Shown here: positions 27,102 to 63,046 of the stretch, in pieces
How positions within the stretch are numbered: position 1 is the stretch's first letter
Layout: every line of letters begins with the position of its first letter
Position numbers and translations under genes: made by a program
The notes under the pieces: model-generated
What the model saw: only the letters and a program-made list of their open reading frames with translations
Databases searched by the model: none
Told to the model about the DNA's origin: nothing
Assembly: GCA_023897205.1 (NCBI GenBank)
Contig: JAHWDD010000012.1
Span: 62,001 to 126,000, forward strand
DNA: 64,000 nucleotides
Direction of reading: 5' to 3'
Source of the DNA: Exophiala sp. HKRS030
Lineage: Eukaryota > Ascomycota > Eurotiomycetes > Chaetothyriales > Herpotrichiellaceae

Positions 27102-28673
27102 ATGTCCATCAAAGCCATCTTCTACAGCAAATTTGACCCCCATGAAGGTGAGTCTGTTCAGTCTGGTCCATTGCATCGGCTAACCTCTTCATCAGGACCA
27201 AAGATTGTTCACCAAGTGCCAGAAGACTCGATCCTGACGACGACCACCGAAATCCCCGCAAGCAATGCCACCTCATCTTCTCCGCTTCTATCCTTTCCCA
27301 CCATATCACGCTTCGTGATACCTCGTCAGTCACTCTGTGGGAACCTCATATCATTGTCACCGCCTCCTCTGACACCAAATACACCACCTACGCTTGTCCT
27401 CTCGTACCCGATCTGCTTGACGTCTCCGCATTATCCGCGAAATGAATTCATTTTCAACTTTGCGCTTTTGCTGGGCGAGCCCAGTACCACGGATGTCGCA
27501 TCATACAAGTCCGTGGTCAAGAAGCTGGCACATCTGATGCGCAGTCTGGAGGAACAATCAAGGTTCTTGAGTGACGATGCGTCTCCTCCAAACTCTGGCA
27601 AGATATACAGTTTATGCGAAATGCTCATGGAGGATCTGAACAATTACTGTGAATGCATGATCCCAATTGACGAGCTCAATACCTTGAACATCAAGCTGTT
27701 CCCTTCGCTGCCGAATCCCGCCAGTGTCAAGCCGTGGTATGTACCGCTGTTCACGGTGAGAATCGAGACCATGATCGACGAAAACTGGGATTTGACCATG
27801 TTACGGATCATTCCTTACATCAACGGTGTCAACAGCGTCAAGAGGATAGCAATGTTGGCCGATGCCGATCTCAAGCTCACCAAGAAGTGCGTCAAGCATT
27901 TGCTGTACTATGGCTGCGCTATCCTACTCGACATATTCAGCTTCAACGCGATCTACGCCCCGACGGCCGAGTTTTCCAACCTGATCGCCAAAGATCCCGC
28001 CATGCAACTGGAATGCGCTCGTTATGTCAACACGGCACTCGCCCCGGCGGCCCAAGAAGAAGCCATCATAGATAGCGCCACGGAACGGAGGACCAGCGGC
28101 TTGACGTCGCTCACATTACAAGACGATGACATCTGGCCGCTCACTGGCAAAGGTGATCCCATCGACGGCGTCGGCATAGTCCAGCTCTTTGCTTGTCTCA
28201 GACAAGGGTTAACCGTTCGGGAATGGTACGCACAAAATGCGGACATGCTCGCAAACATCGACATGCGACGGTTCATCACTTTTGGTGTCATCAAGGGTTT
28301 TTTGTATCGTGTACACCGGTACGCTATCAGAACTCAAAAGGCACTCGGTCCAAATTCTCAGATCCATAACCATCATCATGATCGTAATCATAATCAGCAT
28401 TCCGATTACGACTCGGAGGACCTCACCAGAAGCATGTCGAGTGAGCGACATTTGACTGAGGATACATCCAGGCGGAAGGGGAAGAACGTCGTTAGGAGGA
28501 CGTCCGATCGAGGGGGGGTGTCTGATCGTCATATCAACCATAGAATCATTGAATTTCTGGATGGTACACACTGTTTCGATGAGATCTGTACGGAATTGGA
28601 CATTAGCGAAAAGGAATTGATGGACAGATTAAAGAGTCGAGATATTGGTGAAGCAGTTGTGATATGTAGATGA
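27102..28673 (+). CDS. NPR2: Nitrogen permease regulator 2 homologue (SEACIT/GATOR1 subunit)
   Basis: Two exons (27102-27147, 27196-28673) give 507 residues. The 48-nt intron has no stop and a length divisible by three, so an unspliced reading frame also exists. Splicing gives the family N-terminus IFYSKFDPHEGPKIVHQVPE, which settles the model. Npr2 pairs with Npr3 and Iml1 as the GAP complex for the Gtr/Rag GTPases at the vacuole, restraining TORC1 when amino acids are scarce. Typical blocks RNEFIFNFALLLG, KPWYVPLF and the winged-helix part (INGVNSVKRIAMLADADLKL) are present. A His/Asn/Asp-rich linker precedes the last 60 residues, and the C-terminus RIIEFLDGTHCFDEICTELDIS is normal. Confidence 0.93.
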   Translation: MSIKAIFYSKFDPHEGESVQSGPLHRLTSSSGPKIVHQVPEDSILTTTTEIPASNATSSSPLLSFPTISRFVIPRQSLCGNLISLSPPPLTPNTPPTLVLSYPICLTSPHYPRNEFIFNFALLLGEPSTTDVASYKSVVKKLAHLMRSLEEQSRFLSDDASPPNSGKIYSLCEMLMEDLNNYCECMIPIDELNTLNIKLFPSLPNPASVKPWYVPLFTVRIETMIDENWDLTMLRIIPYINGVNSVKRIAMLADADLKLTKKCVKHLLYYGCAILLDIFSFNAIYAPTAEFSNLIAKDPAMQLECARYVNTALAPAAQEEAIIDSATERRTSGLTSLTLQDDDIWPLTGKGDPIDGVGIVQLFACLRQGLTVREWYAQNADMLANIDMRRFITFGVIKGFLYRVHRYAIRTQKALGPNSQIHNHHHDRNHNQHSDYDSEDLTRSMSSERHLTEDTSRRKGKNVVRRTSDRGGVSDRHINHRIIEFLDGTHCFDEICTELDISEKELMDRLKSRDIGEAVVICR

Positions 28674-28682
28674 GCACGTACA

Positions 28683-28700
28683 TACCTAGGTACCTAGGTA
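28683..28700. repeat. Perfect 18-bp palindrome, two copies of TACCTAGG(T)
   Basis: TACCTAGGTACCTAGGTA reads identically on both strands. It starts ten bases after the NPR2 stop codon. Exact TACCTAGG also occurs at 31197-31204 and 31366-31373. It may be a 3'-end hairpin or a protein site. Confidence 0.7.
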
Positions 28701-28933
28701 TTCAACAAGACATGCCTTACGAGTCCTCTAGACTTTTCAATGATACTAGGTGCTACGGAGGAAATGGGTACATACTGACCCTAGTATTGAACACCCCCAG
28801 TTCGGCTTGTTTAGGCGCACTGATGTCGCCTCCAATAGGCCTCGAGTGGGTATCCCCGACCCGCAAACAATCGTAACGTTGTATACCATGGTGGTCGAAA
28901 ATTGACTTAATTTCTCCCGGGAGGATGGCCGAG

Positions 28934-28998
28934 GTAAATAATCCCAACCCTTTCCTTCTATTTTGTTCCTCGATACTAACAAAGGGCTTTGCGAACAG
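28934..28998 (+). other. 65-nt spliceosomal-like insert in the tRNA D-loop
   Basis: The insert lies between tRNA positions 15 and 16. It begins GTAAAT, has a pyrimidine-rich middle, a perfect TACTAAC at 28974-28980 and ends AACAG, with the branch A 19 nt from the 3' edge. These are the same signals seen in protein-gene introns nearby, such as LYS1 intron 1, which also has TACTAAC. It also splits the internal A-box. Confidence 0.75.
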
Positions 28999-29021
28999 TG
29001 GTTTAAGGCGGCAGATTTAAG

Positions 29022-29051
29022 TACAGATCCATGGTCTACATTCTTAAAATT
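29022..29051 (+). other. Canonical tRNA intron after anticodon position 37
   Basis: A 30-nt intron at the universal nuclear tRNA intron site. CTTAAA within it (29043-29048) is exactly complementary to the anticodon-loop TTTAAG, the usual intron-anticodon helix recognised by the tRNA splicing endonuclease. Confidence 0.82.
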
Positions 29052-29097
29052 CTCTGCTTTCCGTAAGGAAGCGTGGGTTCGAACCCCACTCCTCTCA

Positions 29098-29434
29098 ATT
29101 ATTCTCTTTTTTAATTTTTTGCATTCTCGATTATTTGTATAGTTGAATAATGGGTAGAGTACAGTGGATGGAGGAGGGGAGTTTGGATTTCTCTCTTTCG
29201 GCGTCAAGACTAGATGGACGAGTACCTTTCGCAGTGATCACGATGACGCAGAGCTATATTCATGGCATCATCATATCGGTCCGTCTAGTAGATATCTGAG
29301 TTTTGATATACTTCTTTCTATCTTCACACCAGAGTATCATAATCCAATATATATCCGTATACTCCGTATATAACAGCAGTAATAGGTATATACGCAAATG
29401 TCAAGAAGTACTCCGTCATCACATCTACCTCTCT
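29098..29434. other. Intergenic after the tRNA
   Basis: Holds the Pol III terminators, one exact TACTCCGTA (29360-29368) and the 3' flank of the minus-strand PLP enzyme gene. I see no gene. Confidence 0.4.
29107..29112 (+). terminator. Pol III T6 terminator
   Basis: Six thymines begin ten bases after the discriminator base of the tRNA. A second T6 lies at 29115-29120. Confidence 0.75.
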
Positions 29435-30888
29435 CTATCCAGCAACATCCTCTGCCATTCTTGATCCATCCCTTCCGACCTTTCCTGCCTGCCTTTCTTT
29501 TGTGTCCTTTGCGTCTGTCTCATCCTCCCCAAACAACTTCGCAATGGCCTTCATGGTAGTATTCCCACCCGAAAACACGACCCCGACGTCCCACCCGTCC
29601 TTTTCCAATCCCATCTGTCTCTGGGAGCACATGGCCCTGAATTCCTGGTTGAACAACACCACGGCCAACCCGACACAACCGCTCGGCTCGACCACGACCT
29701 TTAACCTCTCAAACACCAACCTCATGGCCATTTTGATCTCGTCTTCGGTCACGGAGTAGACCCCCTCCAACTTTCTCCTGTTGCTCAGAACACCCCAGTT
29801 TGTCACCCCAACCGGTGTCCTCAGACCGTCGGCGATGGTCAACGTCTTGACGTGTTCGATCCTTTTTCCTTGTGCTAAGCCACGTCTTCCGTCGTCGCCA
29901 CCTTGGAAACTCGGTTCGGCTCCAAACACCAAAGTACCTGGTTTGTCGGAAAAGTATGTAGCCACACCCGACAACAAACCTCCACCGCCGAGGGGTGTTA
30001 TCACCGCGTCCAGACCTTCGAGTTTTGTCCGAGTAGAAGAACCATCATCGTCATCACCATCCTTTGAGGAGGATGTCTCCTTCTTCTCCGTAAGTCGTTG
30101 GAGTTGTAATTCACGGACTTGTGACTCGAGTTCCAACCCTACGGTTCCTTGACCTAGAATGATGTCGGGATGGTCATAAGGTGGGACCAGTATGGCACCC
30201 TTGTCGGCAATGACTTCTGCCACCACTGCTTCACGTTCTTGACTCGTCGAACCGGAAAAGATGACGTTGGGTGTGTACAACCTCGTCCCGGCGATCTTGG
30301 AAGGTGTACTTATACTCGGCATCACGATGTAACTTGGTATTTTGAAAGTCGAGGCCGCCAGAGCCAAAGCTTGTGCGTGGTTACCTAGACACAGAACACA
30401 AAGAGAGGGGTGTCAGTATAGTGATTGTGCTAGGATACAACTAGACCATCTCGTTGCTCGACCAAAGCACACAACGAAAAAACAGATGTAGCTGAGAAAA
30501 AAAGGAAAACAGAATGCATACCACTGCTATGAGTGACCACTCCACGTCTCCTGACCTCTTCTACGCCCATCTCCTCCACGAGTCTGGCCACGGCGTGGAA
30601 GGCACCTCGGGCCTTGAAAGCACCAATCTTTTGGAAGTTCTCACACTTGAACCAGACGCGAAACCGAGGCGTCGTCTCGGCGTTCGACCCCTTCGCTCGT
30701 GACGCTTCGGCTTCCTCGAACGTCGGGGGGGTGTCGCCGAGGAACACCCTGGGGTCGGGAGCACTCGCGATGGCGTCCAACGACCTCGACGTCAAGACGG
30801 GCGTATGGTGGATGTGACCCTGGATTTTGGCGTGAGCCGCCACGATGGACGACGGCAAAAGTGGTGGACAGGTGTTCGGGTCGGCCAT
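29435..30888 (-). CDS. PLP-dependent serine racemase / serine-threonine dehydratase family
   Basis: Two exons (30522-30888 and 29435-30384) give 438 residues. The fold type II PLP enzyme marks are clear: FKARGA with the Schiff-base Lys92, HSSGNHAQALA (rebuilt across the intron) and the phosphate-binding loop PLGGGGLLSG, with SGGN near the end. These enzymes racemise L-serine or eliminate ammonia from serine, threonine or hydroxyaspartate. Sequence alone does not choose between them. No mitochondrial presequence or regulatory ACT domain is present, so it is not the biosynthetic Ilv1. An acidic SSSKDGDDDDGSS insert near the middle and an N-terminal insert (PPTFEEAEASRAKG) are unusual for the family. 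Confidence 0.88.
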
Positions 30889-31626
30889 GTCGAATGAGTA
30901 ATGCTTGGACTCAAAAGGAATACCCCCCTTTTCTTATCAGGGTAGTCTTGACCTGGAAATTTGTACTCGGGTTACCCTGGAGGGGTATACTTGACGGATG
31001 GACCTCACTCCCGTATCGTCACTTGTTGCTTCCTAAGTTGAATGATATTCAATTGGGATTGACGATAAAAGGACGTGTCCTTTCATCGCTCTAGACGACA
31101 ACACAAAATTTCGTTTGGTAGTTTGTGGTGCTAGTTTCTGCGAGAGACTTGTGGATATGAGTGAGTAGGCATAAACAGCAGATGGTGCTGAATATCTACC
31201 TAGGAAGTGGGTGGTCTGTCCTAGGCTGGCGTGATCGCATTTACAAAAAATAGTTTGTCCTGCGGGGACATATTTACCCTACACCCTGTACATCGCAGCC
31301 CACCATCCCTCATTCTATGTATCATCTAGGGACAATTTACGATCTTACGAGTCTCATCATATCTATACCTAGGCAAGGATAGTTGTCGAGTGACTTCAAT
31401 TGCAACGGAAATTCAAGGCAAAAGCAAATGAACATTCAATTGGCATTACTCCAGAATCTCGATCCTTTTTGGTTCATTCTTTTCATCTCTGGAAAAAAAG
31501 ATAAACAATGACCACCATTTGATACATAGTTCACTTTTGACTAACGCCGTGCTATCTTCTGAATTACACTGGAAAGCGTAAGCCCCTCACAACTACTTAA
31601 GGTACCCAACCCAGATGTAAGGTAGC
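30889..31626. other. Intergenic, PLP enzyme promoter and ILV5 3' flank
   Basis: No gene is supported. Two TACCTAGG motifs (31197-31204, 31366-31373) are noted. The last part is ILV5 3' UTR. Confidence 0.4.
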
Positions 31627-33058
31627 TTAGTTGTTCTCTGGTCGCAGAGAGCTGGAAAATTATTGTCAGTCAAAGCACAAACAACACAAGAGACAAATAA
31701 AACTTACCGGACAGCCTTTCCGGCACGCCAGATTTCCATGCCCCGGATGTCCTCCATCTCCTTCTCAAACTTCTGTCTATAGTCCTTTTGGCTGTTGTAC
31801 TCCAAGCTGCGCTTGGTCTCGGTGCCGTTCTTCACGCTGTCGTACAGATCGTTGAAGACGGGTTTGAGGGCATCCTTGAACTTGCCTTGCCAGTCGATGG
31901 CACCCCGACGGGCGGTGGTCGAGCAAGCAGAGTACATCCAGTCCATACCGTTGGCACCAATGAGAGGGTACAGGGATTGGGTGGCCTCCTCCACAGTCTC
32001 GTTGAAGGCCTCCGAGGGTGAGTGACCACGCTCGCGGAGAACCTCGTACTGGGCGAGGAACATGCCGTGGATACCACCCATCAAGCAACCTCGCTCACCG
32101 TACAGGTCAGAGTAGACTTCCTTCTCGAATGTGGTCTCGTAGAGGTAGCCGGAACCGACTGCGACACCCATGGCGATAGCCTTCTCTTTAGCCTTGCCGG
32201 TAACATCCTGGAACACGGCAATGGAGGAGTTGATGCCTCGACCTTCACGGAAGAGGGATCGGACAGTTCGGCCGGAACCCTTGGGGGCCACGAGGATAAC
32301 ATCGATATCCTTGGGCACATCGACCTTGGTAAGGTCCTTGAAGACGGGAGAGAAACCGTGGGAGAAGTACAGGGTCTAAAATGGACAGTTAGAAGCTGTT
32401 TTCTCGCGGAAAAGGCAGGGTTTCGAGATCATACCTTTCCCTTGGTCAATTGGGGCTTGATAGCTGGCCAGGTCTCACTCTGGGCGGCATCACTGAGCAA
32501 GTTCATGATGATGCTTCCCCGGGAGATGGCCTCGTCAACCTCGAACAAGTTCTTGCCTGGGATCCAGCCATCTTGTTCTGCCTCCTTCCATGAAGCTCCG
32601 TTCTTTCGAACACCGATGATGACATTCAAGCCGTTGTCACGGAGGTTGAGACCTTGACCATGGCCTTGCGAACCGTAGCCGATCAGTGCTAGGGTGTCGT
32701 TCTTGAAGTAGTCCTGCAATTTTGTCAGATCTTGTCGTCCCAGGAGACAGAATTTAGCATACGAGGAGTTTCTCGCGAGGCCAGTCAGCACGCTCTAAAC
32801 AAGATGTCAGTAAAGCTTCGTCGAACTGGACCAGAAAAACCATGTACCGTAGACCTCTTCTTTCGTGCCAGCAAAGTCAATGGTCTTGACACCTCTTGTC
32901 TGTTGCTGAGCGGGAGCTGCGAATGAGGTTCTCTGAGAAGCTGCCACAACGGGTCTGGTTGCTCCGGCAGAGACAAACGACCGCTTGGGGACGGAGGGAG
33001 TCGAGAGCTTCTGCTTGGAAGCAGTGCGCAGGGTTCTAGCAAATGTCTTGGAAGCCAT
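31627..33058 (-). CDS. ILV5: Ketol-acid reductoisomerase, mitochondrial
   Basis: Five exons (32848-33058, 32763-32794, 32435-32713, 31708-32375, 31627-31651) give 404 residues. The enzyme rearranges and reduces acetolactate/acetohydroxybutyrate with NADPH, the second common step of valine and isoleucine synthesis. The presequence (MASKTFARTLRTASKQKL..) is Arg/Ser/Ala-rich with no acid, typical for matrix import. The Rossmann motif LIGYGSQGHGQGLNLRDNGL is complete. VAPKGSGRTVR, LYGERGCLMGG and the metal-binding Glu region follow, ending in LRPENN. Exon 2 encodes only RADWPREKLL plus a split codon, and the last exon eight residues, so the gene is easily mis-modelled. Confidence 0.95.
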
Positions 33059-33592
33059 TTTGTCAATCAAGTTGAACAAGGAGAGGAGATTCTGAAGTTG
33101 TGCGAATTGTAAGAATTGAGAAATCCTGGGGAAATTTTTGATACTTTATTACTCGACGCACTCGCACTCTGCGCAGCGAGCTCTTCATTGCCGGTGTCTC
33201 TCCTCATTGGCCCCCCAACCTTGGGCTTGGCTCCGAGAACGGATAGAGGTTTCGGACAATTTCTAGTCTCCCCGAGTCGCAGTCTGGACCAAGGCATAGG
33301 AATATCACCGCCTTATTGGTATCTATTCGCAGTACGGATATTTAAGAGCAGTCTTGCAGGCATTGTCACGGCTGTTCAGGCTTGCCCTTGGGTTGCTGCC
33401 AATATCTGGAATTTTCATTTCTTGTATCGGTATACAGCTTTTCTGTACATCACCCTCGCCATCTCCCGGGATGCCTCTTCTCTAAGTATGCAAGGCGACC
33501 TCCAAACACCTTGACGGAGACTCTTGCAAGTCCTGATCAGTATGAAGTTGTGTCATTCGTCGTATCTATCGTGTCTAAGATCTTTGGAGGTA
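33059..33592. promoter_or_regulatory. ILV5 promoter region
   Basis: Upstream of ILV5 on the minus strand. One inverted CCAAT box (ATTGG, about 33196-33200) is present. No Gcn4 or Leu3-type site is convincing. No gene is seen. Confidence 0.4.
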
Positions 33593-34296
33593 TCACCGCA
33601 ACACGCGGTCGTAGGTTTGGCCTCTAACCGAACCACCACCCATTGCTGTTCGTGCATTTCTTCTAAATCCTTCTCGGTTATTTCTCAGGTCCTCGGCCGC
33701 TTCTTTGTTCAATGGATCGGAAGCATTGGGTTCTAAGAAGAGAAACTGTATTGAGTGTTAGTGACCGCTGCCTCTTTTGATCTGGAAACACCTACCTGCA
33801 TGCCGACGATGACAGCGTTCAAGTTCAACACAGGCTTCCAGTCTTCTCGCAGAATGTTTAAGCACACGTTTCCTTCTAGGTCGATGTTTGGATGGTAGAT
33901 CTTCTGAATGCATTTGACCTTAGGTGGGTCGTGAGGGTAATTCTGGTTGATGGCGAAATTAAATACGAAGCTGCCACCCTTGTACATGCCTTCATCCGGT
34001 TCGATAGTAAGTTGAAAGTTGAGGATATCGTCAGGGTTTGGAAATGTAGTCTTCATGGTTGATCCGAGAGAAACCTCACTCAGATCTTGTACTGGTTAGA
34101 CCAAATCGTCACCTAACGGAGTAGCAGATCCCACCTTTTTGTACACGCAATTGCGCTGCCGTGACTTTCTTCTTCTTCTGTGTTGTTCCTTGCGCTTGCT
34201 CATCCTTCTGCTGCTGCTGCTTCTGTATACCACTGTCAGCCAGGTTCGAAATGTCCTGTCCACAGTTCCACCTACCATTGACCATATTTTCATCAT
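33593..34296 (-). CDS. UBC12: NEDD8-conjugating enzyme E2 (Ubc12)
   Basis: Four exons (34276-34296, 34135-34222, 33796-34085, 33593-33745) give 183 residues. Ubc12 takes Nedd8/Rub1 from the Uba3 complex and passes it to cullins with Dcn1 and Rbx1. The N-terminus [16 protein letters not shown] is the short extension that docks on the E1. [19 protein letters not shown], the HPN element ([21 protein letters not shown]) with catalytic Cys111, and the C-terminal [10 protein letters not shown] helix are all present. The first exon is 21 nt; ATG at 34293 would start one residue later. Introns are 49-53 nt, each with good GT..AG ends. Confidence 0.94.
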
Positions 34297-34946
34297 CTTG
34301 GCGGTTTGTATGGTAGAGGCAGAGGTCTCGTTAATGGCTCGGGGTCTCAAAAATCGTGTTAGGCGATCGCTGTGAGTGTCTGGCAAAGCCTGTGATCGAA
34401 GAGCGCAGTGAAATAGCAGAGGCAAAGGGCACAAGATGGACGACCAGCAGGATGAGTAACGATTGAGGGAAATGGAGTGGCGAAGACCGGATCGAGGCAA
34501 GACTGGTCGTACTTGGTAGCGCAAAGGCCGCAAAGTACAATATATGTGAAGAAGACGTGGTGGAAGCTAAAATAATATAAAGGAATGGTTGTTATTAGAC
34601 AGTGAAAGTATTCAGTCGTAGTTGCGTTGGCTGTTCGCCGTTGGCCGCAGCCCTCACATGACGCAGTTCGGCCGTATATGAGGCTATTCTCCGATACCAA
34701 TAGTTGTACGGAGTATGGAGTACTCTGTACTCGTACTGTGCGGATTTTTGCAATCGAAAGTCCCATCGATTGATAAATCCTTTTGAATAGATTTACTGTC
34801 TACGACTGAAGCACGATTTACGTCTGTAGCAGCACACGCAGGTGGTACATTTTTATTTTGATTCTTCTGACAGAAAATGTCCAAATCTCCAGATTTTGCC
34901 GACCTTCGCCCTGATCTCATGCTTATGCAGCACCCTCTATGATTGA
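34297..34946. other. UBC12 promoter and chitin synthase 3' flank
   Basis: Contains one exact TACGGAGTA (34707-34715). A near-complete B-box look-alike at 35005-35015 is coding sequence of the chitin synthase, not a tRNA. No gene is supported. Confidence 0.4.
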
Positions 34947-37786
34947 CTATCTTCGATTGAAACAACACAGCAACCCTGTCCTGCCCAAGAACCAACAACA
35001 CCCAGTGAATCGAACCAGGGACAAAGCTGCCGTGGTCCAGAGCAGAGCTTGGAAAAAGTGACTACTTCGGCTCGTGGCTTGAGACTGTGCATCTATTTAG
35101 CGAAACTTCTGCCTCCAAAGAAAAGAGAACTTACAGTGAATCCAAATTTGTCGACATTGTCACTAGTAATTGCCACTGCCAGCAGAGCATTTGAAAAGAG
35201 CCAGGTGGCGACAAGTCGAGTTCGGAAGTTCTTGTACGAATCTTCAAGCGTCTTTTCCTCTTTCTCCTCTGGAGCCTTGTATGGTGCCAAGGCACGTCGT
35301 ACGGTGGCTTCGAATTGACTGTCGATATCCGCCTGTGGTTTGTCGATTTCTTCGATGACTGCCGTTTTGCCCTTCTCGTCCTTCTTCGACTGGGCGGAGG
35401 GTAAAGCTTCTGCCTTGTCAGAGCCCTTCGTACCCCAGGAGACATCGTGCCAATTGCTAAAAGCATAAATCATGAGGATGTTGATAAATGATGGCATCAG
35501 GAGTAGATATTGACCGAAAGAGGTGAACATGTGCCACGGATCCAAGTACAGGAAGGAGGCGACGAAATACAAGCCGAAAGTGGCCGCCAATGCAATGATG
35601 ACAATTCCAGGTCCTGTTGATGCGAAGAACGATTTGACAAACTCATTGGCACCCTCATTTGTGACTATGTCGGTGCCGTCTTTGGTCGTAAATGCTCGAA
35701 CCACCAGGTACATGGACAGAACAATAACATACAACTGAATAAGCGCAAACAGGATGAATGACATGACGTAGGCCATCTTCGAACCTTTCGGTCGATTACC
35801 AAGCGCGAGGATGAATTGGAGCAGGAGGAAGGCCAGATAAAGATATTGTAAAACCGTGTTGATAATGGGAGTCGCCTTATCACCAAAAGGAAATGCCGTG
35901 TTGTTGTTTTGACTGCTAGGTTGACCAACAAGATCCATAAGAATTTTGGTTGTGAGCCAGAAAGACGCCAGAGAAAACCAGGAAAGCAGGACCGAGACAA
36001 TGTTGTAGAGCATTTGAACGTGGAGGAAGAACATTCGAATGAGGTTGTGGCCGGATTTGTACATGCGAGAGAAATGCATGAGGGAATAGATGGAGGCGGC
36101 AAATGAACCGTTCAACCAACGTCGACGTTGTCCGATGAATTCAGGAGCTCCTTCAGGTACATCGGTTTCGGCTCTGGATGCCTTGACGTATGAAAGGTGC
36201 CATTTGGATCCAGCCTTTGCCACCAATTCGAAACACAAGATACGATCTTCTGCCAAAAACATGTTCTTCTTGAAAATGTTCATGCCCTCGATACCTTTCT
36301 TGCCCAGACGTGCGGAGAGGGTGTGATCGCCGTGGAAGTACTGCTCGAGAGGGCGACCCATAATGGCTCTAAAGCGATACGCAGAGAATGCACCAGGCAA
36401 GACACTAACGTAGCCGAATGAACTTTCCAATGGTTTGTCCAGAATGTTACTGATCTTGTACTCGAAGTTCTGAGCCGCGACCAGAGGATTCAACAGTTTT
36501 CTCCCAAAGACACCTCCGCGTCCCAACATGGCATGGATTTCTCCACAAGCACCACCAAGGTCTTTGTCGTTGTAGAATGCCTCCCAAAGAGCCATCAAAG
36601 ACTTGGGACCAGGCTTTGTGCCTGCATCGAGCAAGATGCAAACTTCTGGGTTCAAGATACGTCCGAAGCCATTGAAGAGCCATCGATGGGAATTGATCTT
36701 CTTACTATTCTTCTGCTTCAGACAGAATATCATCTGGACGGGAGGCAAGGACGTCGAATCGTTGTCGTTGGGTCGGATCAATTGCTGATTAGGTGTCACT
36801 GAAAGCTGGGTCGTGTACTCGAAGATATGCACCACTGTGTCCTTCCCATCAACGTCCTTTTTCATGACTCCATCTTGGTAGATACCAACAGTGGCCAGCA
36901 GATCCAGTGTATTCTTGTCACAAGGGTCGATACCATCGAAAACCAGACACACAACAATCTTCTGCCAGGCGGGACCACCCTTGTTCCAAAACTCGGACTT
37001 TTTCAGATTCACAATGTCACGAATGTTCTGCATCACACCATGGAGCGTGCGCGCCGTCAAGACTTTATCCTCGTTGTAGTAGGTAATGGCGATCAACAAT
37101 TCGGTATGCCGATTGTACATGGCCGGTCGCAGATTATAGCCGTTCTTAAGGGTAAAATCGTCCGGGTCACACGTCGCCGCTGTGTATCGCATGTGTGTGA
37201 ACTCTTCACTGCCACCCTCGAGGTCGCCTCGATATTTCGACTGGATGGCATTTTGAATTGCGCTGGGCACCGGGTAATCGATACTCAGTACGCTCCCTTG
37301 AACTAGCTTGACTTTTCTTGTAGCATAGCGCTTGATTGTGCCGTACCCAGGAGCCTGCCTTTCCTGCCACGCATCTTGTGTGGTCATTGGGTTGCTGGGA
37401 TTCGGACCCCCCTGGGCGGGCAAGTTGTTCTGTGAATTGGAGCGGTAGGCTCCTTGCTGACCATATGGTTGCGGATTGTAGTTTGTTCCTGTGACTGGAA
37501 CTTTTGAGGGATCTCCTCCGACATATGACTCGTTCAGTGTGTAGACCGACTCTTGTCCCGGGGTCAACGGCCGTGAGTGGGAGTGAGGATCATCGTAGGG
37601 AACCTGGTATGCGGCGTTCTGATGCAACAGGGAGTGTTCTGCTTCGTCGTCTGAATGTCCAGGAGAGGGTCTGTAGTTCTGTCGCAGGATTTAGCACAAG
37701 GCCCAACCACTTCGCGCCTCTGAGATTTGACTTACATTGCCGTGTGAGAGATCATTGAGCTGGTGACCAGGATATTGGTGCGCCAT
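34947..37786 (-). CDS. Chitin synthase, division 1 (class I-III type)
   Basis: Three exons (37736-37786, 35135-37678, 34947-35084) give 910 residues. The polymerase adds GlcNAc from UDP-GlcNAc to chitin at the plasma membrane. The N-terminal 130 residues are disordered and Pro/Gln/Asn-rich. The catalytic core shows [34 protein letters not shown], the EDRIL motif and QRRRWLNGS, followed by about seven membrane helices. The last exon is essential: splicing out 50 nt at 35085-35134 restores the family C-terminus [18 protein letters not shown] and CCFNRR. Without it the frame stops after FAK. Exact class (I, II or III) is not decided here. Confidence 0.93.
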
Positions 37787-40678
37787 ATTTGCCAAATGGG
37801 ACTGCTGGATGGACCAGCAACGACGCAGCTTGTACTTGCAAGGTCTTGGTGTCTGTAGACAGCAACTTTCGGGGTTCAGAAGGTCTGGGGAATAATGATG
37901 AAATATTAAGAGTGACAGCCGCCAGGGCTGCTTTGAAGGGGGTTTGCTGTTGAACTGTAGGGTCGTGTGAAGTATTGGAAACAAAGTGAGACGGATGCGG
38001 AGAGTACGTGAAGTGAAAGACTCGAGCACAAAGAATGTTCTATCTGAATACCAAAGAAGGTAGCTCCGTGATACACACGGCTTTCCGAACTCGTAGTAAG
38101 TATGGGAGTGACCAGGTAAAGAAAGAAGAGGGATCAGAGGTGGTGTTTCAAGGTCTCGAAGTCCCTGCCCGTGGTTCAGGCCAATTCCCAAGATATCTCT
38201 CCCCTGAAGCAGACCGCCAGCTGATGTGCATCAACCTGGCAAGTAACAGGCTTACGACAGAATCTTAGCCACTCCAATCATTGGGCTCCATAGTATTTGA
38301 CTCGCTAAAGGGCGAAAAGAAGGCTGTGCAGCAATTGGTTTCTTCGCTGCCCTGGAACCTGCGCAGCAACAACGAGGCGTCTCCGCAAGTGGAATTCTAG
38401 TCAAGGGATGACGGTATCTACTACGACTTTGCTACCTGTGGCTCAATATGACCTGGGAGTCTCCGTACATGGCGAGAGGCATTGAACTGAAGGGTCTGTA
38501 CATACTCCGGTTCGCACTCCGTAATTATCGCGATCGTCACAAACCTCTACCCAGTATGTCTTTCCCCGGGTTTCATCGTCCTCACAGGGATGAAACAGCT
38601 AGAACGACTGAAATAGTCCTGGCGGCCTCCGATGATGGGTCTTATCGCCAACAGTGGCGTCACGGCTACAAGCGCAAGCCGCAAACCAGGGACCAAAGAA
38701 CCCGGGCTTGTTTCAGGGGACGAGGCTCCCTAAGCCGTTTAGGGCTTCATCTCTCCCCGCATGCGCGATCATATCACCTTGCTCATTACTGTTGGACGGA
38801 GGTACTCTTTCCACGACATACAGTCATGAAGAACGAGCGGAGGCCGAAACAGCACAAGGTGACAGGTTCGACGTACAGTACTGGCATTTGGTGCCACAAT
38901 CGGAGTTTTCACAGTCAGATCCATTTTTAGTACTTGTACTCCGTATAGTAATAAGGTAAAGCCCATTGCTGGCGGTGCAAGTTCTGCAAACAGCCGCGCC
39001 ACAACGCCCCTTTGACGATCAGCTACCTATTTTGTGCCTAGAGATCCAAGTAGCCGAGACTGGCAGTCGACATTTAAATGATGCCACAGATCTATCATCA
39101 ATTCACTGCTCAGGAGTAGTTCAACTGTGCGCAGCATTATTGATTACGAGTACTCACTCATCAGTTGTTCTCGCTGATCAAAAGACATGGTACGGAATAT
39201 CCGTATTATGGTGGCATAAGCACATTCGCCCATTATAGAACATTGGGTGTTGTTGTCCGGTGGCGGTGGCTGCGATGAGATGCAGTCGGGCTGCCTGATC
39301 AATCAGCAGCAGGCTGACTTTGCATTCCATATCAGAAGATAGAAATAATTTATGAGTAGGTATACTCGTAGAGAGTCGTGTATGTGTTTTTTTTTGACAT
39401 TGGTTGTTGACTCAGCATTCTTTTCGCTCGCACTTGTTACTATACAATACCTAAGAGTAACACATTCCCGTCTAGTTCTAATCAGCATTGCGAGTAAAAT
39501 CTCGTGGATCCAATGAGAACCAGAAAACACCGAGATCCTACGTAGAAAACAAAACATATCGTGGACTCACACGGTGAGCAACGTCAGTCAAGAAAGTGAC
39601 AGGCTGGATGACATGCGATTGAAAGGAAGCAATTTATCTTTTCTTCGCAGACGTGTGAGCGTCATGACTGTCGAGTGAGCCATGGAGAGTGTCCACGTAC
39701 TCGTATGTACTCGTACTCTAACTCGTCTTCCATATCCGTACAGCCACCAGCATCTCATGTGAGAAAGATCTCTCGGTGTGTTTGTCTATCTCACCTGCAG
39801 AAGCAGGTGGTAGAATCTCGCTTGAACCAGGCTCATCAGCCAACAAAGAGCCCTTTGTGCCTGGAGAGCGTGTGATTGGGAGAGGAGGATCACGGACACC
39901 TACGCCCTGGAAGATCCTGGTAAAAAGCAAGGGATCGTGTTTGAACGCGGCCCAGCGCCATTCCTTGGTGGGCGATGGTGTGCTGTGGTGTGCTCTTGGT
40001 CTGCTTGATCCTGCCGCGCGTTGTCGGCTGTCAACCAACAGCGTCCCAACTCCACTGCCCCTTCATCTCCCTCGTCTGCCCACTCACCTTCTGTTTTTCA
40101 TCCCTTCGTGCCCTTTCGCTCCTCTCAATCCATCCCCAGAAGGCGTTGCTTGTCCTTCGGTCGAGAACGAAGGATCTGCTCACCTTAACGACCCTCGATC
40201 GTCCTCAATTCCTTCCTCCTTCATCCAACTCGACCTCATTCTTTCACCTCTTACCTCGACCTTATCCAACTTCAATTCAGTCTTTCTCGCCATCCCTTTC
40301 AGATTTTATATTTTCGTCCCCGGTGGAACGCTCGTTGGGTCGCTGGAGAGACCAACCACATTCCATTCTCTATTCTTTGTCCTGCATTCGGTACCTTACA
40401 GCTGACAAGCTTTACGACCACCGGTCTACCACTTCTCTGAACAGCTCTTCCCCGCTTAGATTATTGTCCGTTATACGACGAGTATATGGGAATAGCCACT
40501 CTTTTGTTTTGAAAAGAACGGAAACCGGATTCGGGAGGATCGGCAAGAATCCAGACACTTCCTTGCGCTGCGCCCATTTTATCCCGAAAAAGCGACTGTA
40601 CCAAGAGAAGCTGGAATCCAAACCTACTTCAATCAACGGGCGACCAAGGTTGCGCACTAGAGGCTAAATACTATCGCC
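37787..40678. other. 2.9 kb intergenic between chitin synthase and OPY2
   Basis: The largest gap in the window. Overlapping + strand frames at 38448-38930, 39776-40405 and 39975-40667 have no recognisable domain. The last 600 bases are C/T-rich like a fungal promoter and leader of OPY2. One exact TACTCCGTA is at 38937-38945. A short or rapidly evolving gene or non-coding RNA cannot be excluded. Confidence 0.4.
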
Positions 40679-42054
40679 ATGGCGCACTCTGAGTGTGAGT
40701 CTCACCAGTTCTGCAGCAACAAAACTTGCTAACAATTGCATTAGCAGCAAGATCACACCCTAACCATCTCTTCCGGCGATGTGTACAATGCCCACCAGAG
40801 CCTCCCAGCTGCCCTCAATGTTCGGCAGATGAAAGATGTTCCTTGTCGGCTCAATCTTGCAGTTCATGTGCATCAACAACCTGCGTCAAGCTCAATACAA
40901 TCCCGGGCCAGTCATCGCCCAAGAAGTCTACCCCCGTCGGTGGAATCGTTGGTGGTGTGATCGGAGGTTTAATCTTTTTGGCTGTCGCCATATATTGCAT
41001 CTATCGGTTTCGATCTCGCAAGAAGAGACGCATTGAAACTTGGGATCCGCCCGAGAAACGAGATCAGTCTACCCTGCACCGATCTCATCGTCAATCTACA
41101 CGATCTGCGCACTCGATCGCGTCGACGGTGCTCACGCGAGCCTCGAATGTCATTCAGATCGCATACATTCCTGGTGTCACGGTTCGATCACCACCAGAAT
41201 CACCGGCACTCCTCGTTCCACCTGTTCCCGCTCTGCCTGGCAGCTTAGGCAATTCGACGACGTCCACGCCTGCTCTCGAGCAACACTTTTTCATGCCTGG
41301 GGATCTCAGAGATTCTACGTGGTCCGATACAGATTCGGTAGACGCTCGCTTTAGTGTTGCACCTAGCTTGGCTCGAAACAGTGTGGCAACTACGATTTAT
41401 CGAAGCGATGCCATCGTTCCGCCAATTCCGGCACAACAAGCATTCCGAGCACAAGCAAATGTTGTCAGCGTTAAATCGGGCGCCAATACACCAGGAACTT
41501 CTTCTACACCAAGCACCAGAACCCCTAAGATCCCACAGGTTCCTGCTATGGGAAGCTCGGGGAGTTCTATTGTAGCAAGAAATGTCACGGCCAGACCTAT
41601 TGAAGTCAAAAAGACCAATTCCGGTACAAGCGTTCCAACTTTGGCAAATCTCGCAAAGAAAGCGGCTCGTCAAAGTGGTACCCCTTCACCCACCACCGAA
41701 AAGAGCATACCCATCTACAGCGACGAAAAGGAAGTTGTTATTTCAAAGTCGACTGTTTCTTCTCCTAGTACTGCCATGATGGATGATCCCATTTCTCCCA
41801 TCACAATCCCACGACCTGCGTTTGCTGGCAATCAATCGACACGATCCTCTTCGGTCAGCGCGATCCTACCTCCGGATGCACTGAAGCAGTCTGCCAACAA
41901 CAATCCCATCAATGCCATGATTGCTGATGCAATCAATAGAGCAAGGGACCCTCAAGCCATCGGGGTGACAAGTCCGACTTCACGTCCTCCACTTGTCCAA
42001 CATGACTCTGGGCCATTTTCAGATTCTAACGAGGTCAAGGAAAACTTGTCTTGA
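40679..42054 (+). CDS. OPY2: Opy2-like membrane anchor of the HOG osmosensing pathway
   Basis: Two exons (40679-40694, 40745-42054) give 441 residues. The 16-nt first exon encodes MAHSE plus one base. The extracellular N-terminus is the Opy2 cysteine block (CVQCPPEPPSCPQCSADERC, then CSSCASTTCVKL), the domain that meets the mucin-like sensors. One membrane helix (GGIVGGVIGGLIFLAVAIYCIYRF) is followed by a basic stop-transfer RSRKKRR. The long cytosolic tail is Ser/Thr/Pro-rich and should dock Ste50. The gene is intact and is the only signalling-pathway gene in this block. Confidence 0.88.
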
Positions 42055-42455
42055 TGTATATATACTTGCTTCTTCTGAAATTTATGTGCCACGAGGCCAT
42101 TCTTATGAGTCTTTCAGCGATTTGAGATGTTTTAGATACCACGTAGAGCGATGATCAGTCACATTGTCGCGGAATGAAAAGTGTTTCCGACCATCAAGTA
42201 CCAATGTTCGTAGTGCTCTGAAATGGACTCCATGTTAACAAGGGTGAGCGTGAAATATGTGCCAATTAAGGAGTGCTATGTGCTGAGTCATACACACGTT
42301 CTCCAATGGGCGCGTCTCGCAGGCGCGTCTCGCCCGTTCATCAGTTATCATTTGTGCATCCGTCCTATGGATTCCGTACTTGGTATTTCCATTCCAGCCT
42401 GATACCATTTCTCTGATCTCTTAAGCAACTACTATCCTCAACGAAAATCTTCGTC
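42055..42455. promoter_or_regulatory. OPY2 3' flank and PRI1 promoter
   Basis: Contains the tandem GGCGCGTCTCGC element listed separately. No gene is seen. Confidence 0.45.
42309..42333. promoter_or_regulatory. Tandem GGCGCGTCTCGC repeat, candidate MBF sites
   Basis: Two copies of GGCGCGTCTCGC separated by one base, about 125 bases upstream of the PRI1 start. Each contains CGCGT, the core of the MluI cell-cycle box (ACGCGT) that drives G1/S genes such as primase in yeasts. The flanking base is not the consensus A, so the assignment is tentative. Confidence 0.45.
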
Positions 42456-44036
42456 ATGGGAATCAAGATGCCAGAGTCCTCCTCACCGCGCGAGTCTTCT
42501 CCTGTCAACGATGACGACGTAACTCTGCCTGATGCACCCCCTCTAGAGAGTGAAAGCGGGACTGCATTGGACCCGAACAAGCCAGATCAATCAAAAGTTG
42601 CGCTCGAAGACCTGTTCGATGATGATGATGGCGACCTTGAGGACGAAATTCTAGCTTCCGACGCAGCAAATCTGCCCTCTCCTCCTCCCCAGACTGCACC
42701 CGCAACATCAGCAAATGCTGCACCTGCTTCTCAACAGGAATCCTACTCAGACCCCAACTTGATGTTACAGTTCTATTCAAGACTGTTCCCATTTCGGTCG
42801 CTATTCCAATGGCTCAATCATTCCCCCAAACCGGGACCCGACTTTGCCAACAGAGAGTTCGCACTGACCCTGTCCAACGATGCATATCTTCGATATCAAT
42901 CCTACCCCACCGCAGATACTCTTCGTAAAGATATCCTACGGCTGAATCCCTCACGTTTCGAGATAGGGCCCGTGTACACCACGAACCCGAGAGACAGAAA
43001 AACCTTGAAGAAGAGTTCAATGTTCCGACCATTGAGCAAAGAGATAGTTTTCGATATTGATTTGACTGATTACGATGATATTCGGACGTGCTGCGAAAAG
43101 GCCAATATCTGTTCAAAATGTTGGTCCTTTGCAACGATGGCGATCAAAGTGGTTGACGTCGCGCTAAGAGATGATTTTGGCTTCGAGCACATTATTTGGA
43201 TATACTCAGGGCGTCGTGGTGTCCACGCATGGATTAGTGACAAAGATGCCCGCGAGCTGGACGACGACAAGCGGAAAGCGATAACTGGCTACTTTGAGGT
43301 CTTGAAGGGAGGCGTCCAGGGTGGCAAAAGAGTTAACCTCAAGCGGCCACTGCATCCTCATATCACGCGAAGTCTGGATATCCTCCGACCATACTTCCAA
43401 CAGGTTCTTGTTGACCAAGAACCCTTCATGTCACAGAATGGGCAAGATCGACTTTTACAATTGCTTCCCGACAAAGCACTGAACGAAGCACTGGCCAAGA
43501 AGTGGGCGAGCAGCCCCAATCGACCAAGTGCCCGTAAATGGGCTGATATAGACGCCTTGGCGGAGACCGGAGTCAGCAAAACGTTGAACACGAAAGCGTT
43601 GTTGGAGGCCAAACAGGACATCCTTCTTGAATACACCTATCCCAGACTCGATGTGGAAGTCGGCAAGAAACGCATTCATTTGTTGAAGAGCCCTTTTGTC
43701 GTGCATCCTGGAACTGGAAGAGTCTGTGTACCAATCACTGCAGCTGGAGACATGAAACGTGCCGAGGCTTTCGATCCGCTGTCAGTTCCTAGGGTCACTG
43801 AACTCCTCAAAGAAGTTGATGAGTTTGGAAGTGCCGATGACGGTGCGAACGTCAATGGGTTTGTTGAGGACGGTGTGACGATGAGGAAGTTGAACGATTG
43901 GGAGAAGACTAGGCTGAAGTCATACGTTGAATTATTTGACGGTCATATCAAAGCGTTAATGAAGAGTGAAATGGTTAGGGTCAAGCGAGAGAGGGACGAC
44001 GATGGCGTTACGGGGCCTGACGGAATGGAATTTTGA
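42456..44036 (+). CDS. PRI1: DNA primase small (catalytic) subunit
   Basis: A single exon of 526 residues. With Pri2 and DNA polymerase alpha it makes RNA primers for replication in the nucleus. The N-terminal 90 residues are acidic and disordered. The catalytic core starts at LMLQFYSRLFPFRSLFQWL. The metal-binding aspartates are in EIVFDIDLTDYD, the structural zinc residues in CCEKANICSKCW, and the nucleotide-binding IWIYSGRRGVHAWISDKDAR follows. C-terminal marks such as LLKSPFVVHPGTGRVCVP are present. Length is longer than yeast Pri1 mainly because of the acidic N-terminus and the C-terminal KRERDDD tail. Confidence 0.95.
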   Translation: MGIKMPESSSPRESSPVNDDDVTLPDAPPLESESGTALDPNKPDQSKVALEDLFDDDDGDLEDEILASDAANLPSPPPQTAPATSANAAPASQQESYSDPNLMLQFYSRLFPFRSLFQWLNHSPKPGPDFANREFALTLSNDAYLRYQSYPTADTLRKDILRLNPSRFEIGPVYTTNPRDRKTLKKSSMFRPLSKEIVFDIDLTDYDDIRTCCEKANICSKCWSFATMAIKVVDVALRDDFGFEHIIWIYSGRRGVHAWISDKDARELDDDKRKAITGYFEVLKGGVQGGKRVNLKRPLHPHITRSLDILRPYFQQVLVDQEPFMSQNGQDRLLQLLPDKALNEALAKKWASSPNRPSARKWADIDALAETGVSKTLNTKALLEAKQDILLEYTYPRLDVEVGKKRIHLLKSPFVVHPGTGRVCVPITAAGDMKRAEAFDPLSVPRVTELLKEVDEFGSADDGANVNGFVEDGVTMRKLNDWEKTRLKSYVELFDGHIKALMKSEMVRVKRERDDDGVTGPDGMEF

Positions 44037-56005: not shown

Positions 56006-57784
56006 TCACAAACCATCTTCAACTTCATCGAGGTCATAACTTCCCATTTTCCTAGGAGGGACCCGATGATGAAACAGATAATCAATCTCCTGGAAAGTGC
56101 GACCTTTGAGCTCGGGAATGTAAAAGTAGCTCCATATGGTCCCAAGCAGGCAAGCACCGCCAAAGACAAATCCGACCTTGCCTTTCAAGTTCGCCTTGTC
56201 CGGGTTGACCATATACGGTACGACGATGTTCATGACGGTCCCAAAAACAGCCTGGCAAGCGGTGGCCAGTCCGACCGTCTTTGCACGGAGAGAAGGGGTG
56301 GAAACTTCGCCGAGGAGTGCAAATGCAATGCATCCGATGGTGATTTGGTAAATGAGAGCGTACACCACGGTGCAAGACGCTTGGACCCAGCGAGCGGCGG
56401 AGGTGTGGACAACGTCGAGGATGCCCATGAGCACAAGCACAATCGTCATGCCGATCATGCCCCAGACGAAGAGTTTCCTGCGACCCAGAGTGTTGATGGC
56501 CATCCAAGAAATCATGACGCCGACGACACCGCAAGCCGTAACACCAACACCCAAGTCGAACGCGTGGCTGGTTTGGATACCCGCGAGTTCGAAAAAGTAG
56601 GTCGAAAAGCCGAGGACGAACACAATTCCGGACAAGTGTTGACAAGCAAAGGCACCGACGGAAATCGTGGTGCGGACAAGGTTGGTGCCTTGGAAGCACT
56701 GGATCCATCTCGCGGATTTGGATAGTTCCATGTCTTCCTCGACGGTTCGGACGATCATGGCAAGTCTAGGGGTGACGTCGACATCGTGGCCGTGGAGGCG
56801 CTGTAGCGAGCGTCGTGCATCCTCGATTTGACCGTGTCGAACGAAATGCCATGGGGATTCAGGAGCAAACCATACCCCCACAAGAAGGATTGCTGATCAA
56901 TTATAAGGTCAGTAAGCGTCCTTCAAAGTCAGGACTTTGCAATTTTATTGCTCACTCACCAACAAACAGAAATTGCACCGCAAAAGGCCCCCTAAACGCC
57001 CAACGGTCATCTCTGTCTCCAAATCCCTTGATGACTGCGTTGGACAAAAGTTGGCCAATGACTATTGCGAAATTGATACCTCCAGTGATCATTCCACGGA
57101 GGACAACCGGGGCCACCTCGGAACAGTACAAGGGTCCAATGGTGAGGTAGAAACCTAGTCCGACACCCAGGATCAATTTGCCGATGAGAAAGGCTGGTCG
57201 AGTGCTCGAAAAGACCTCTCCGAAGATACCGCCAGTCACAAAGGCTAGACCCATGAGAAGAGACTTCTTGCGGCCGATGCGGTCAGAAAGCCACGAGCAG
57301 GCAAATCCACCAAAGAACTGTCCGACGCTGGAAATGCTATTGAAGCCACTTTGCCAACTCGCCGGAATGACTGCTTGACCTTGGTAGATGTACCTATGTA
57401 GAAGAAGCGATTAGGGTGGGCTTGTCTCTCTCGAGTGTAGGAACTGCATGGAGCATACTTACCCGAACGTGAGGCGAAACTGTGGTACTGAGATCATGGC
57501 ACCATTGACCTGTGCATCAAATCCCCTGTAGTGTCATGTAAGTAAAGCGTGCAGACCAAGATTCTTGATAAACCAGGAACATACCATCCGATAGCACTGA
57601 AGGCGAAAAAAACACACCAGAACACCACGACCTTGTTCTTGGTCAGAGCATCCCAAACCGAAAGTTGATGTTCCTCTTCGGCAGCCACTCGTGCTTGTTC
57701 GACTTTGGGAGCGAGATCCTCAACCATGGTCGTCTCACCTGGTTTTGTCGTTACATCGTGGAAGACTTCAACTGTCTTTTCCAT
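56006..57784 (-). CDS. MFS sugar porter, alpha-glucoside/maltose permease-like
   Basis: Four exons (57585-57784, 57463-57525, 56960-57393, 56006-56892) give 527 residues. Motifs are GFDAQVNGAMISVPQF in TM1, SDRIGRKKSL after TM2, WFAPESPWHFVRHGQ after TM6, INTLGRRKLFVWG, and the C-terminal IPELKGRTFQEIDYLFHHRVP. The long soluble N-terminus (about 55 residues, Glu/Val-rich) and the APESPW variant are characteristic of the Mal/alpha-glucoside permease branch. It should import an oligosaccharide or glycoside with protons. It is divergent from a Zn2Cys6 regulator; the two share a promoter with two identical CGG-N4-CCG sites, so this regulator probably controls it. Confidence 0.91.
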
Positions 57785-57975
57785 TGCGTGTGAGAGATGA
57801 CTATTATGTTAGGAGGTTTACCCCGTTTCGTTGCTGGTCTTTGAGGACAAATGGATCTCTTTAAATGCTTGCACAAACCCATCCACTTCGTAGCTTCATG
57901 GTGATCAAAGAGCGGTGACCATCCCCAGATACAAGGACGTAGTCATCGTCGTGGAATTCCTGGAAAAGACGATAT

Positions 57976-57986
57976 CCGGCATTCCG
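57976..57986. promoter_or_regulatory. CGG-N4-CCG site 1
   Basis: CCGGCATTCCG contains inverted CGG triplets four bases apart, about 190 bases upstream of the porter gene. This is the architecture bound by Zn2Cys6 dimers. Confidence 0.55.
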
Positions 57987-58519
57987 CTGGGAACCCATGA
58001 AGGGCAATGGCACCACGGCAAAGATCTGGGTAGTGAGGAACAAGTGTTGGGTTGCAGTGGGCGTTCGACCGGGTCGGGAGTCCGTTGTACCCCGCCTAGA
58101 ATCCTGCCACCTCCCACCTCCCTAGCAGGGGTAATGGACTCTTTCTCCCCTGCATCAGACGGTCCAGGCCACGCGGTCAAAATCTCATGATGCCACCCAC
58201 AGATCGTCGACTGCCTCGGATGTCACTAATCTTCTCCCATAGACAAACCGCCAGAGTCTACGCTCTGGGAGACTCTTTCGAAAACATTCGACTCCCATCG
58301 GAGATGGCATGTCGTAGTCCGCATTCATGTTCGAGGTCCACTAGTCACAATAAGCTCCAACGTACTGCCGTGGAAGTCTTCTAGAATCTGTGCCAACAAT
58401 GTGTATGTCGCTAGAGCAGTAGGCCCTGGTCGTTCGTTCGGCCGTCGTCCCCACCTCCTACGGCCACCACCGCAGAACCATCTTTCCAGCACTCCGCTGC
58501 TGGCACGACTTTATCAATC

Positions 58520-58530
58520 CCGGCATTCCG
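58520..58530. promoter_or_regulatory. CGG-N4-CCG site 2, identical core
   Basis: The same 11-mer CCGGCATTCCG recurs about 105 bases before the regulator's start codon, which fits autoregulation. An exact repeat of an 11-mer within one promoter is unlikely by chance. Confidence 0.55.
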
Positions 58531-58633
58531 CCCCATCAACTTCATCTTCCATCCCCCGTATCTCTTCCCCAGATCTTGCCCCCGTGGTGCTTGCTGGTGG
58601 AGCGGACCCTCCATCAGCGTATCGTATGGTGAT

Positions 58634-60750: not shown

Positions 60751-60873
60751 CGACGCCGGGGTGGATGGGGACATGAGGTGCACATGTAATGAAGTGATGA
60801 ATGGGAATTCATGCAAAGCGAAGCTGGAAATGGGACGTATAAAAAGTATATATATTGATTGAGCTTGGGAGGA

Positions 60874-62400: not shown

Positions 62401-63046
62401 GATGTGGGATTGAACTTGTGAGTTCTCTGACTTTTGGTGACAGGGTTGGGTTGTGAATAATATAGATACGAAGGAGATAATCGGCCTTTTGAAGGCTCGG
62501 TCGTAGGATGAAAAGGCTCAGTGATAGACAGAAAGAGAGGGTCTTACTTGGGTAGTGCTCACACCACCACGTCTTCGTAAGAGAGGTGTCCAAAGTCAGA
62601 GTGTGTACGGTAACCCGGGTTTGATTAAAGTATTTGTCGTTCGTTGGGTATTACCGTAAATTTGATTGGAGAAAGAGGTGTTGTGAGCAGTTAGTGGCCG
62701 TACTTTATGGATTGAACAGACTTTGTTATATGCATATGCATACTCTATCAGTGCTGTTCTGTGTTGGTCAGTGCCTTATCCGTTAGGTTTCCACGGTGCG
62801 CGGCCCGCTTCGATATACCACAGATGAACGCCGTATCTCGGATTGAATGATGAGGGTCGAGATCCATATGCCTCGGCTGAGTTGCCCTTAATAGTTGGGG
62901 AGAGGCTAGGTACAAATGAGGTTAGCCGCCCATCTGTTATCACCGCATAAGGCCGAAGCGCAGAAAAAAAGTTGCAAACCAGACACAGACACAGACCTCG
63001 CCAACTACCCACCACCACTACCCATCTCACTCTCACAGCAGCAGCA
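62401..63046. promoter_or_regulatory. Divergent promoter, hydrolase / HAS1
   Basis: 646 bases between divergent starts. It contains one CGG-N4-CCG (62608-62617). The last 60 bases before HAS1 are CA/CT-rich leader. I see no gene. Confidence 0.5.
62608..62617. promoter_or_regulatory. CGG-N4-CCG site upstream of the hydrolase
   Basis: CGGTAACCCG has the same spacing as the two sites in the porter/regulator promoter but a different core. It lies about 210 bases before the hydrolase start. Confidence 0.4.

Follow-up and report, generated by a model that had tools for sequence, protein, structure and literature searches.

A candidate spliceosomal intron in the D loop of a tRNA-Leu(UAA) gene in a hybrid-like black-yeast genome

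Here we describe a tRNA-Leu(UAA) gene in the assembly of Exophiala sp. HKRS030 which, on the evidence of ARAGORN and of exon comparison, consists of three exons and two inserts. It occupies positions 28919-29097 (+) of the window, by which we mean the whole 64,000-nucleotide stretch of DNA that was analysed. The second insert lies at the canonical position of nuclear tRNA introns; the first lies in the D loop and has the anatomy of an mRNA intron. We consider it probable (about 0.7) that this first insert is a spliceosomal (U2-type) intron in a gene transcribed by RNA polymerase III (Pol III), and that it is removed before the second insert is taken out by the tRNA endonuclease. The feature is well formed and, within the reach of our searches, single in the genome, and most likely represents a spliceosomal intron of a tRNA gene that works.

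Results

Elsewhere in the assembly, DNA similarity located a second tRNA-Leu(UAA) gene, at C4:199647-199788 (-). It has the same gene as its neighbour, and it serves below as the intact reference (the C4 gene). The layout of the window gene and of its upstream neighbour is as follows.

27102..28673 (+): NPR2 gene, the upstream neighbour, which served for phylogenetic placement of the locus
28919..28933 (+): tRNA exon 1, with the acceptor 5' strand, T8 and the 5' half of the D arm up to A14-G15; found by ARAGORN once insert 1 is removed, and equal to the C4 gene
28934..28998 (+): insert 1, 65 nt, between tRNA positions 15 and 16, with the spliceosomal-intron anatomy GTAAAT ... TACTAAC ... AACAG; absent from the C4 gene
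28999..29021 (+): tRNA exon 2, with the remaining D arm and the 5' half of the anticodon arm; found by ARAGORN, and equal to the C4 gene
29018-29020 (+): anticodon TAA, in exon 2
29021 (+): G37, in exon 2
29022..29051 (+): insert 2, 30 nt, at the canonical tRNA intron position 37/38; found by ARAGORN, and the C4 gene is interrupted there too
29052..29097 (+): tRNA exon 3, with base 38, the anticodon 3' strand, the variable arm, the T arm, the acceptor 3' strand and discriminator A; found by ARAGORN

With both inserts present, ARAGORN called no tRNA when introns were disallowed, and its sole call when they were permitted, a tRNA-Gly(tcc) with an intron of 105 nt, was spurious. Deletion of 28934-28998 yielded a tRNA-Leu(taa) with a 30-nt anticodon-loop intron, and deletion of both inserts yielded an 84-nt uninterrupted tRNA-Leu(taa) (plus one spurious overlapping Arg call if introns were permitted), whose cloverleaf, as drawn by the program, has a UAA anticodon and not one mismatched stem pair. 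The first-pass annotation had placed a tRNA-Leu(UAA) with these same two inserts here and had held that every stem pairs once they are taken out; its coordinates, bases and pairing all hold. The Rfam tRNA model, at its gathering score, did not report the gene at 28919-29097, and a covariance model built from six leucine and serine tRNAs matched 28982-29097 (38.7 bits, in the region 28700-29300) with the first part of the match aligned onto insert 1. Decayed exons, by which a tRNA pseudogene would be recognised, are not what we found: no stem is broken, and all but 1 of the 84 exon bases agree with those of the intact copy.

In the C4 gene, GGGAGGATGGCCGAG runs straight into TGGTTTAAGGCGGCAGATTTAAG, i.e., there is no D-loop insert, and this junction places insert 1 exactly between positions 15 and 16, as had been proposed. 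Exons 1 and 2 are identical in the two genes, and 83 of the 84 exon bases agree overall; the single difference, in the variable-arm loop, is T in the window gene and A in the C4 gene, so that reads of the two tRNAs are distinguishable. (ARAGORN labels the C4 gene Glu(ttc) with a 40-nt intron; the Leu assignment was made from the identical exons.) The C4 gene has a 40-nt insert at 37/38, unlike the 30-nt insert of the window gene. Placement of insert 2 at 37/38 comes from reading the exons against the C4 gene, and that of ARAGORN agrees with it to a base or two; site and shared occupancy both fit the earlier description of insert 2 as an ordinary tRNA intron. Because the C4 gene fixes them independently, the exon borders do not rest on modelling alone. 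As a separate observation, ARAGORN reported anticodon-loop introns in 23 of 30 readable tRNA loci, in a sample that is biased towards the best-scoring genes and includes some mislabelled calls.

The splicing signals of insert 1 are these.

28934..28939 (+): 5' splice site GTAAAT, which with the preceding GAG matches CAGGTAAGT at 7 of 9 positions
28974..28980 (+): branch-site match TACTAAC (intron positions 41-47), with the branch A at 28979, intron position 46, 19 nt from the end
28994..28998 (+): 3' splice site AACAG

All three had been noted from the letters alone, together with a pyrimidine-rich middle, and all three were recovered; the middle proved to be 80% pyrimidines at intron positions 11-40. 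The insert begins with GT and ends with AG (GTAAAT ... AACAG), as U2-type introns do, and it contains an RCTRAC branch motif (ACTAAC inside TACTAAC) at 19 nt from the acceptor. For fungal introns, section 3.2 of PMC5832005 gives RCTRAC as the branch, 6-36 nt as the branch-to-acceptor distance, YAG as the acceptor and GTRWGT as the donor consensus, the last with a G at position +5, where insert 1 has A. Its donor, branch site and acceptor are thus workably spaced and, except at donor +5, within fungal ranges, which supports the spliceosomal reading. The 7/9 agreement of GAG/GTAAAT with CAG/GTAAGT is reached by 68 of about 64,000 plus-strand nine-mers.

As a joint signature we scored GT[AG] at the start, [CT]AG at the end and, in the last 40 to 8 bases, TACTAAC. 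When both strands of the window were taken as 127,870 stretches of 65 nt, it was present in 1, and insert 1 satisfies it; in a first-order Markov simulation it appeared in 3 of 3,999,360 65-mers. Genome-wide, the strict pattern GTAAATN{25,55}TACTAACN{6,26}CAG had 12 matches (3 + 9 by strand) against 12 (5 + 7) for the reversed control, so the GTAAAT/TACTAAC/CAG combination is no preferred intron signature here. Alone it is no evidence; its weight derives from its coincidence with an exact interruption of a tRNA. The same-site D-loop pattern GGCCGAGGTN{32,62}AGYGGNNNAAGGC, intended for other Leu and Ser tRNA genes, had a single genome match, the window gene itself (control, 0), and a similar D-loop intron pattern was met in 0 stretches of a prokaryotic genome collection. 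When the D-loop pattern was loosened further, there were 36 matches (control, 32), and two tRNA-Leu(UAA) genes and one ARAGORN tRNA-Ser locus were recognised among the 36. In a genome search at E values up to 10, insert 1 matched only itself, and neither a second copy nor an intron source or donor sequence was found. Membership in a family of introner-like elements was considered and rejected on the same result, multiple near-identical copies being the mark of such a family.

The Pol III signals are partly intact.

28926..28937 (+): A-box remnant TGGCCGAGGTAA, a 10/12 match to what we take to be the A-box consensus; insert 1 takes the place of GG at 18-19
29076..29085 (+): B box GGTTCGAACC, intact by direct reading and identified by what we take to be the B-box motif
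29107..29120 (+): two T6 runs, Pol III-type terminators

A further A-box match (11/12), at 28999 (+), is attributable to chance. Insert 1 itself contains a four-T run (28961-28964); a run of this length is probably too weak to terminate transcription in fungi.

Elsewhere in the assembly, a firm mRNA intron is present in the adjacent NPR2 gene and supports the spliceosomal reading. It spans 27148-27195 (48 nt, GTGAGT..GGCTAAC..CAG) and is omitted by the Knufia peltigerae gene model; being in frame and free of stops, it leaves the unspliced NPR2 reading frame open. A U6 core pattern matched the genome twice, both times on contig C5 (control, 0). One of these U6 genes, at C5:2143871-2144024 (-), is interrupted by a 53-nt mRNA-type insert exactly between AGAGAAG and ATTAGC (GTTCGT..ATAACTAAC..CAACAG, branch A 10 nt from the end). 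The other, at C5:5283494-5283592, has no interruption. We also ran a motif-guided intron-candidate script on 15 gaps between exons conserved in both parental copies (see below); it returned 21 top-ranked candidates at 11 of the gaps and none at the other 4. Nineteen of these are 47-79 nt long (the others, 105 and 123 nt), a span that takes in the 65 nt of insert 1, though such motifs were required or favoured by the script. Because a loose branch motif was required, this result shows only that introns of such size and kind are plausible here.

The assembly (59.8 Mb, 50 contigs) comprises, as judged from gene matches and trees, two diverged Chaetothyriales parental gene sets, and is in this sense a hybrid-like black-yeast genome, with one set of the E. 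viscosa/K. peltigerae type and one of the E. aquamarina/mesophila type. Window positions 27102-44036 and 56204-64000 match C4:179001-219000 in two oppositely oriented runs, with an inversion between the blocks; DNA identity is 66-79% in pieces longer than 100 bases, two short pieces reaching 84-89%. A primase tree of 41 proteins (the two copies and 39 of 120 listed relatives) puts the window copy in a group that includes Exophiala viscosa (99/96) and the C4 copy in one that includes E. aquamarina (98/91). NPR2 likewise occurs twice, on C12 (the contig of the window) and on C4. In a tree of 38 NPR2 proteins (36 of the 120 listed relatives and the two copies), with long outgroup branches that the program flagged, the window copy is sister to K. 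peltigerae (100/99) and the C4 copy groups with E. mesophila (100/99). Of 507 aligned residues, the window NPR2 shares 504 with the K. peltigerae protein. This points to a recent merger, provided that K. peltigerae is not itself a hybrid. Among the database proteins listed for the C4 NPR2, none is near-identical, the best matches being 80% over its length and 86% over 73%. The condensin subunit 2 family has two genes, 69% identical, on one contig (C5:822751-823890 and C5:5281995-5283035), which suggests that the two parental genomes share chromosomes. Since this pair and both U6 genes lie on C5, a hybrid nucleus is favoured over a mix of two cultures, unless C5 is a chimeric scaffold. Base composition gave no separation of the two parental genomes.

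In the primase gene, 113 of 158 fourfold sites differ between these parental types, compared with 1 of 84 tRNA exon bases. Judged by this comparison, strong constraint has acted on the tRNA exons, over a time of which some part may precede the gain of the intron. Beyond the genes, the 100 bases downstream align no better than shuffles (score, 40.0; shuffle mean, 40.8). The 100 bases upstream score 46, and the highest of 100 shuffles scores 42, so on that side some similarity may persist.

As to copy number, the exact pattern GTGGTTTAAGGCG occurs twice in the genome, and the looser GGNNNAAGGCGNNNGANTNAA occurs four times (control, 2), two of the four being the tRNA-Leu(UAA) genes and two being judged by eye not to be tRNA genes. 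By similarity and pattern searches, with 63 of 1,707 tRNA family candidates scored, there are at least two genes for tRNA-Leu(UAA), and the two that were found belong one to each parental type. Several intact UAA copies elsewhere, which the first-pass annotation had named among the things that would tell against its proposal, were not encountered within that scope; there was one, and it belongs to the other parental type. Given one gene per parental type, the ancestor of the window copy may have had no other UAA gene; given the intact C4 gene, the window copy might now be dispensable. UUA codons are in use: five reading frames of the window contain 2-5 of them apiece.

Discussion

We suggest that the D loop gained a U2-type intron directly 3' of A14-G15, an AG protosplice site that is common to most tRNAs of this type. 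The precursor would be a Pol III transcript, as the intact B box, the partly retained A box and the downstream T runs would allow. Excision of 28934-28998 by the spliceosome would then restore the D arm, and the precursor, once refolded, would be a normal substrate from which the tRNA endonuclease and ligase take out 29022-29051. Pol III transcription, spliceosomal removal and the order of the two reactions, spliceosome before endonuclease, are what we infer from this arrangement; that the D arm contacts the Sen54 subunit of the endonuclease is reported in PMC4090602.

The first-pass annotation had left three options standing for insert 1: removal by the spliceosome, an ectopic endonuclease intron and a dead copy. 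The spliceosomal option is now the best supported of these, because the insertion is exact when set against an intact paralogue, the exons are nearly unchanged despite deep divergence and a comparable insert is found in U6; the other two retain lower odds. The chemistry that it needs has a precedent, and the anatomy of that precedent is repeated here: U6 of S. pombe is a Pol III transcript from which the spliceosome removes an mRNA-type intron (PMC8917221), and this assembly has an interrupted U6 gene of its own. Against the spliceosomal reading we count the intact copy on C4, the parity of the strict pattern with its control, the A at donor +5, the splitting of the A box (10/12 left) and the lack of an intron source in the genome.

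Two of these counts are also what speaks for a dead or dying copy, in which the insertion would have struck a redundant tRNA gene after the parental genomes merged and the gene would now be unexpressed or unprocessed: there is an intact tRNA-Leu(UAA) gene elsewhere in the assembly, and the A box is damaged. We nonetheless think this unlikely. The cloverleaf is clean, the exons have diverged from those of the C4 copy at a single base, and a complete set of splicing signals is rare by chance, as the simulated 65-mers show. Moreover, the failure of insert 1 to match any donor in the genome argues against a very recent insertion, whereas the merger itself is suggested to be recent if K. peltigerae is no hybrid. 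Less probable still, and in our estimate improbable altogether, is an ectopic tRNA intron of the kind known from Cyanidioschyzon merolae and the nucleomorphs, with the tRNA splicing endonuclease as the enzyme that removes it. D-arm and D-loop introns do exist in some algae (PMC3978253, PMC4090602), as the first-pass annotation had noted for the D arm, and across the junctions of insert 1 one non-standard four-base pairing is possible, as is another of three bases with one flanking exon pair. The annotation had also named a bulge-helix-bulge around the insert as a sign of ordinary endonuclease processing; among 27 arrangements (three registers by nine bulge splits), not one had both 3 or more central pairs and, in exon or intron, a flanking stem of at least 2. 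The canonical introns of both genes served as controls, however, and fared little better: none of these gave a proper motif, the nearest being one C12 arrangement with 3 central, 1 exon and 2 intron pairs. The test therefore has little power to discriminate. What tells further against endonuclease removal is that it leaves the spliceosomal motifs unexplained.

The position of the tRNA gene, on the same strand as NPR2 and 245 nt 3' of its stop codon, raises the further prospect of Pol II read-through, in which the 3' UTR of NPR2 would extend into the tRNA gene and have the intron spliced out of it, no tRNA being made. Of all the readings we find this the hardest to credit, as joining at the borders restores the tRNA exactly, which is not to be expected of an intron in a 3' UTR, and the tRNA sequence is kept in the exons.

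If the window gene is expressed with its D-loop intron spliced out, two splicing systems would act serially on one small RNA, and the A14-G15 protosplice site would be a place where tRNA genes can acquire spliceosomal introns. Gene finders would overlook such genes, as both ARAGORN and the Rfam tRNA model missed the present one. A bolder proposition, to which we would give even odds, is that in the Knufia peltigerae/Rhinocladiella similis lineage the sole tRNA-Leu(UAA) gene has a D-loop spliceosomal intron, such that the decoding of UUA needs the spliceosome and then the endonuclease. Were this so, translation would depend directly on pre-mRNA splicing.

In the open-access literature, covered mostly at the level of titles and abstracts, we found no nuclear tRNA gene with a spliceosomal intron. 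Eukaryotic tRNA genes are described in PMC8450103 as limited to one intron, and canonical nuclear tRNA introns lie at 37/38; insert 2 is like these, whereas insert 1 differs in lying at 15/16. The nearest likeness in position is with C. merolae, Guillardia theta and the chlorarachniophyte nucleomorphs, for which D-arm or D-loop tRNA introns, and more than one intron in some genes, are reported (PMC3978253, PMC4090602). For the ectopic introns of C. merolae, however, bulge-helix-bulge motifs are considered critical in those accounts, and the non-canonical inserts of Guillardia are given as 3-24 nt, in contrast to the 65 nt and spliceosomal motifs of insert 1. Introner-like elements of ascomycetes are described as spliceosomal introns that insert at new sites (PMC4457414, PMC9860276), but they spread genome-wide as copies, whereas insert 1 has no second match.

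In mechanism, the closest parallels are other fungal small RNAs. As stated in 2017, U3 and U6 were the only small structured RNAs known as often interrupted by introns (PMC5832005). The introns of fungal U3 snoRNA resemble insert 1 in being short GT-AG introns with an RCTRAC branch in a structured non-coding RNA (PMC5832005, section 3.2), although the host is another class of RNA. The U6 genes of fungi (S. pombe and others) would share with the present gene a spliceosomal intron in a small structured Pol III RNA, as is stated for S. pombe, and the anatomy is also seen in one U6 gene here; unlike U6, the present host would be a tRNA, a non-spliceosomal RNA that is also interrupted at the canonical tRNA intron site.
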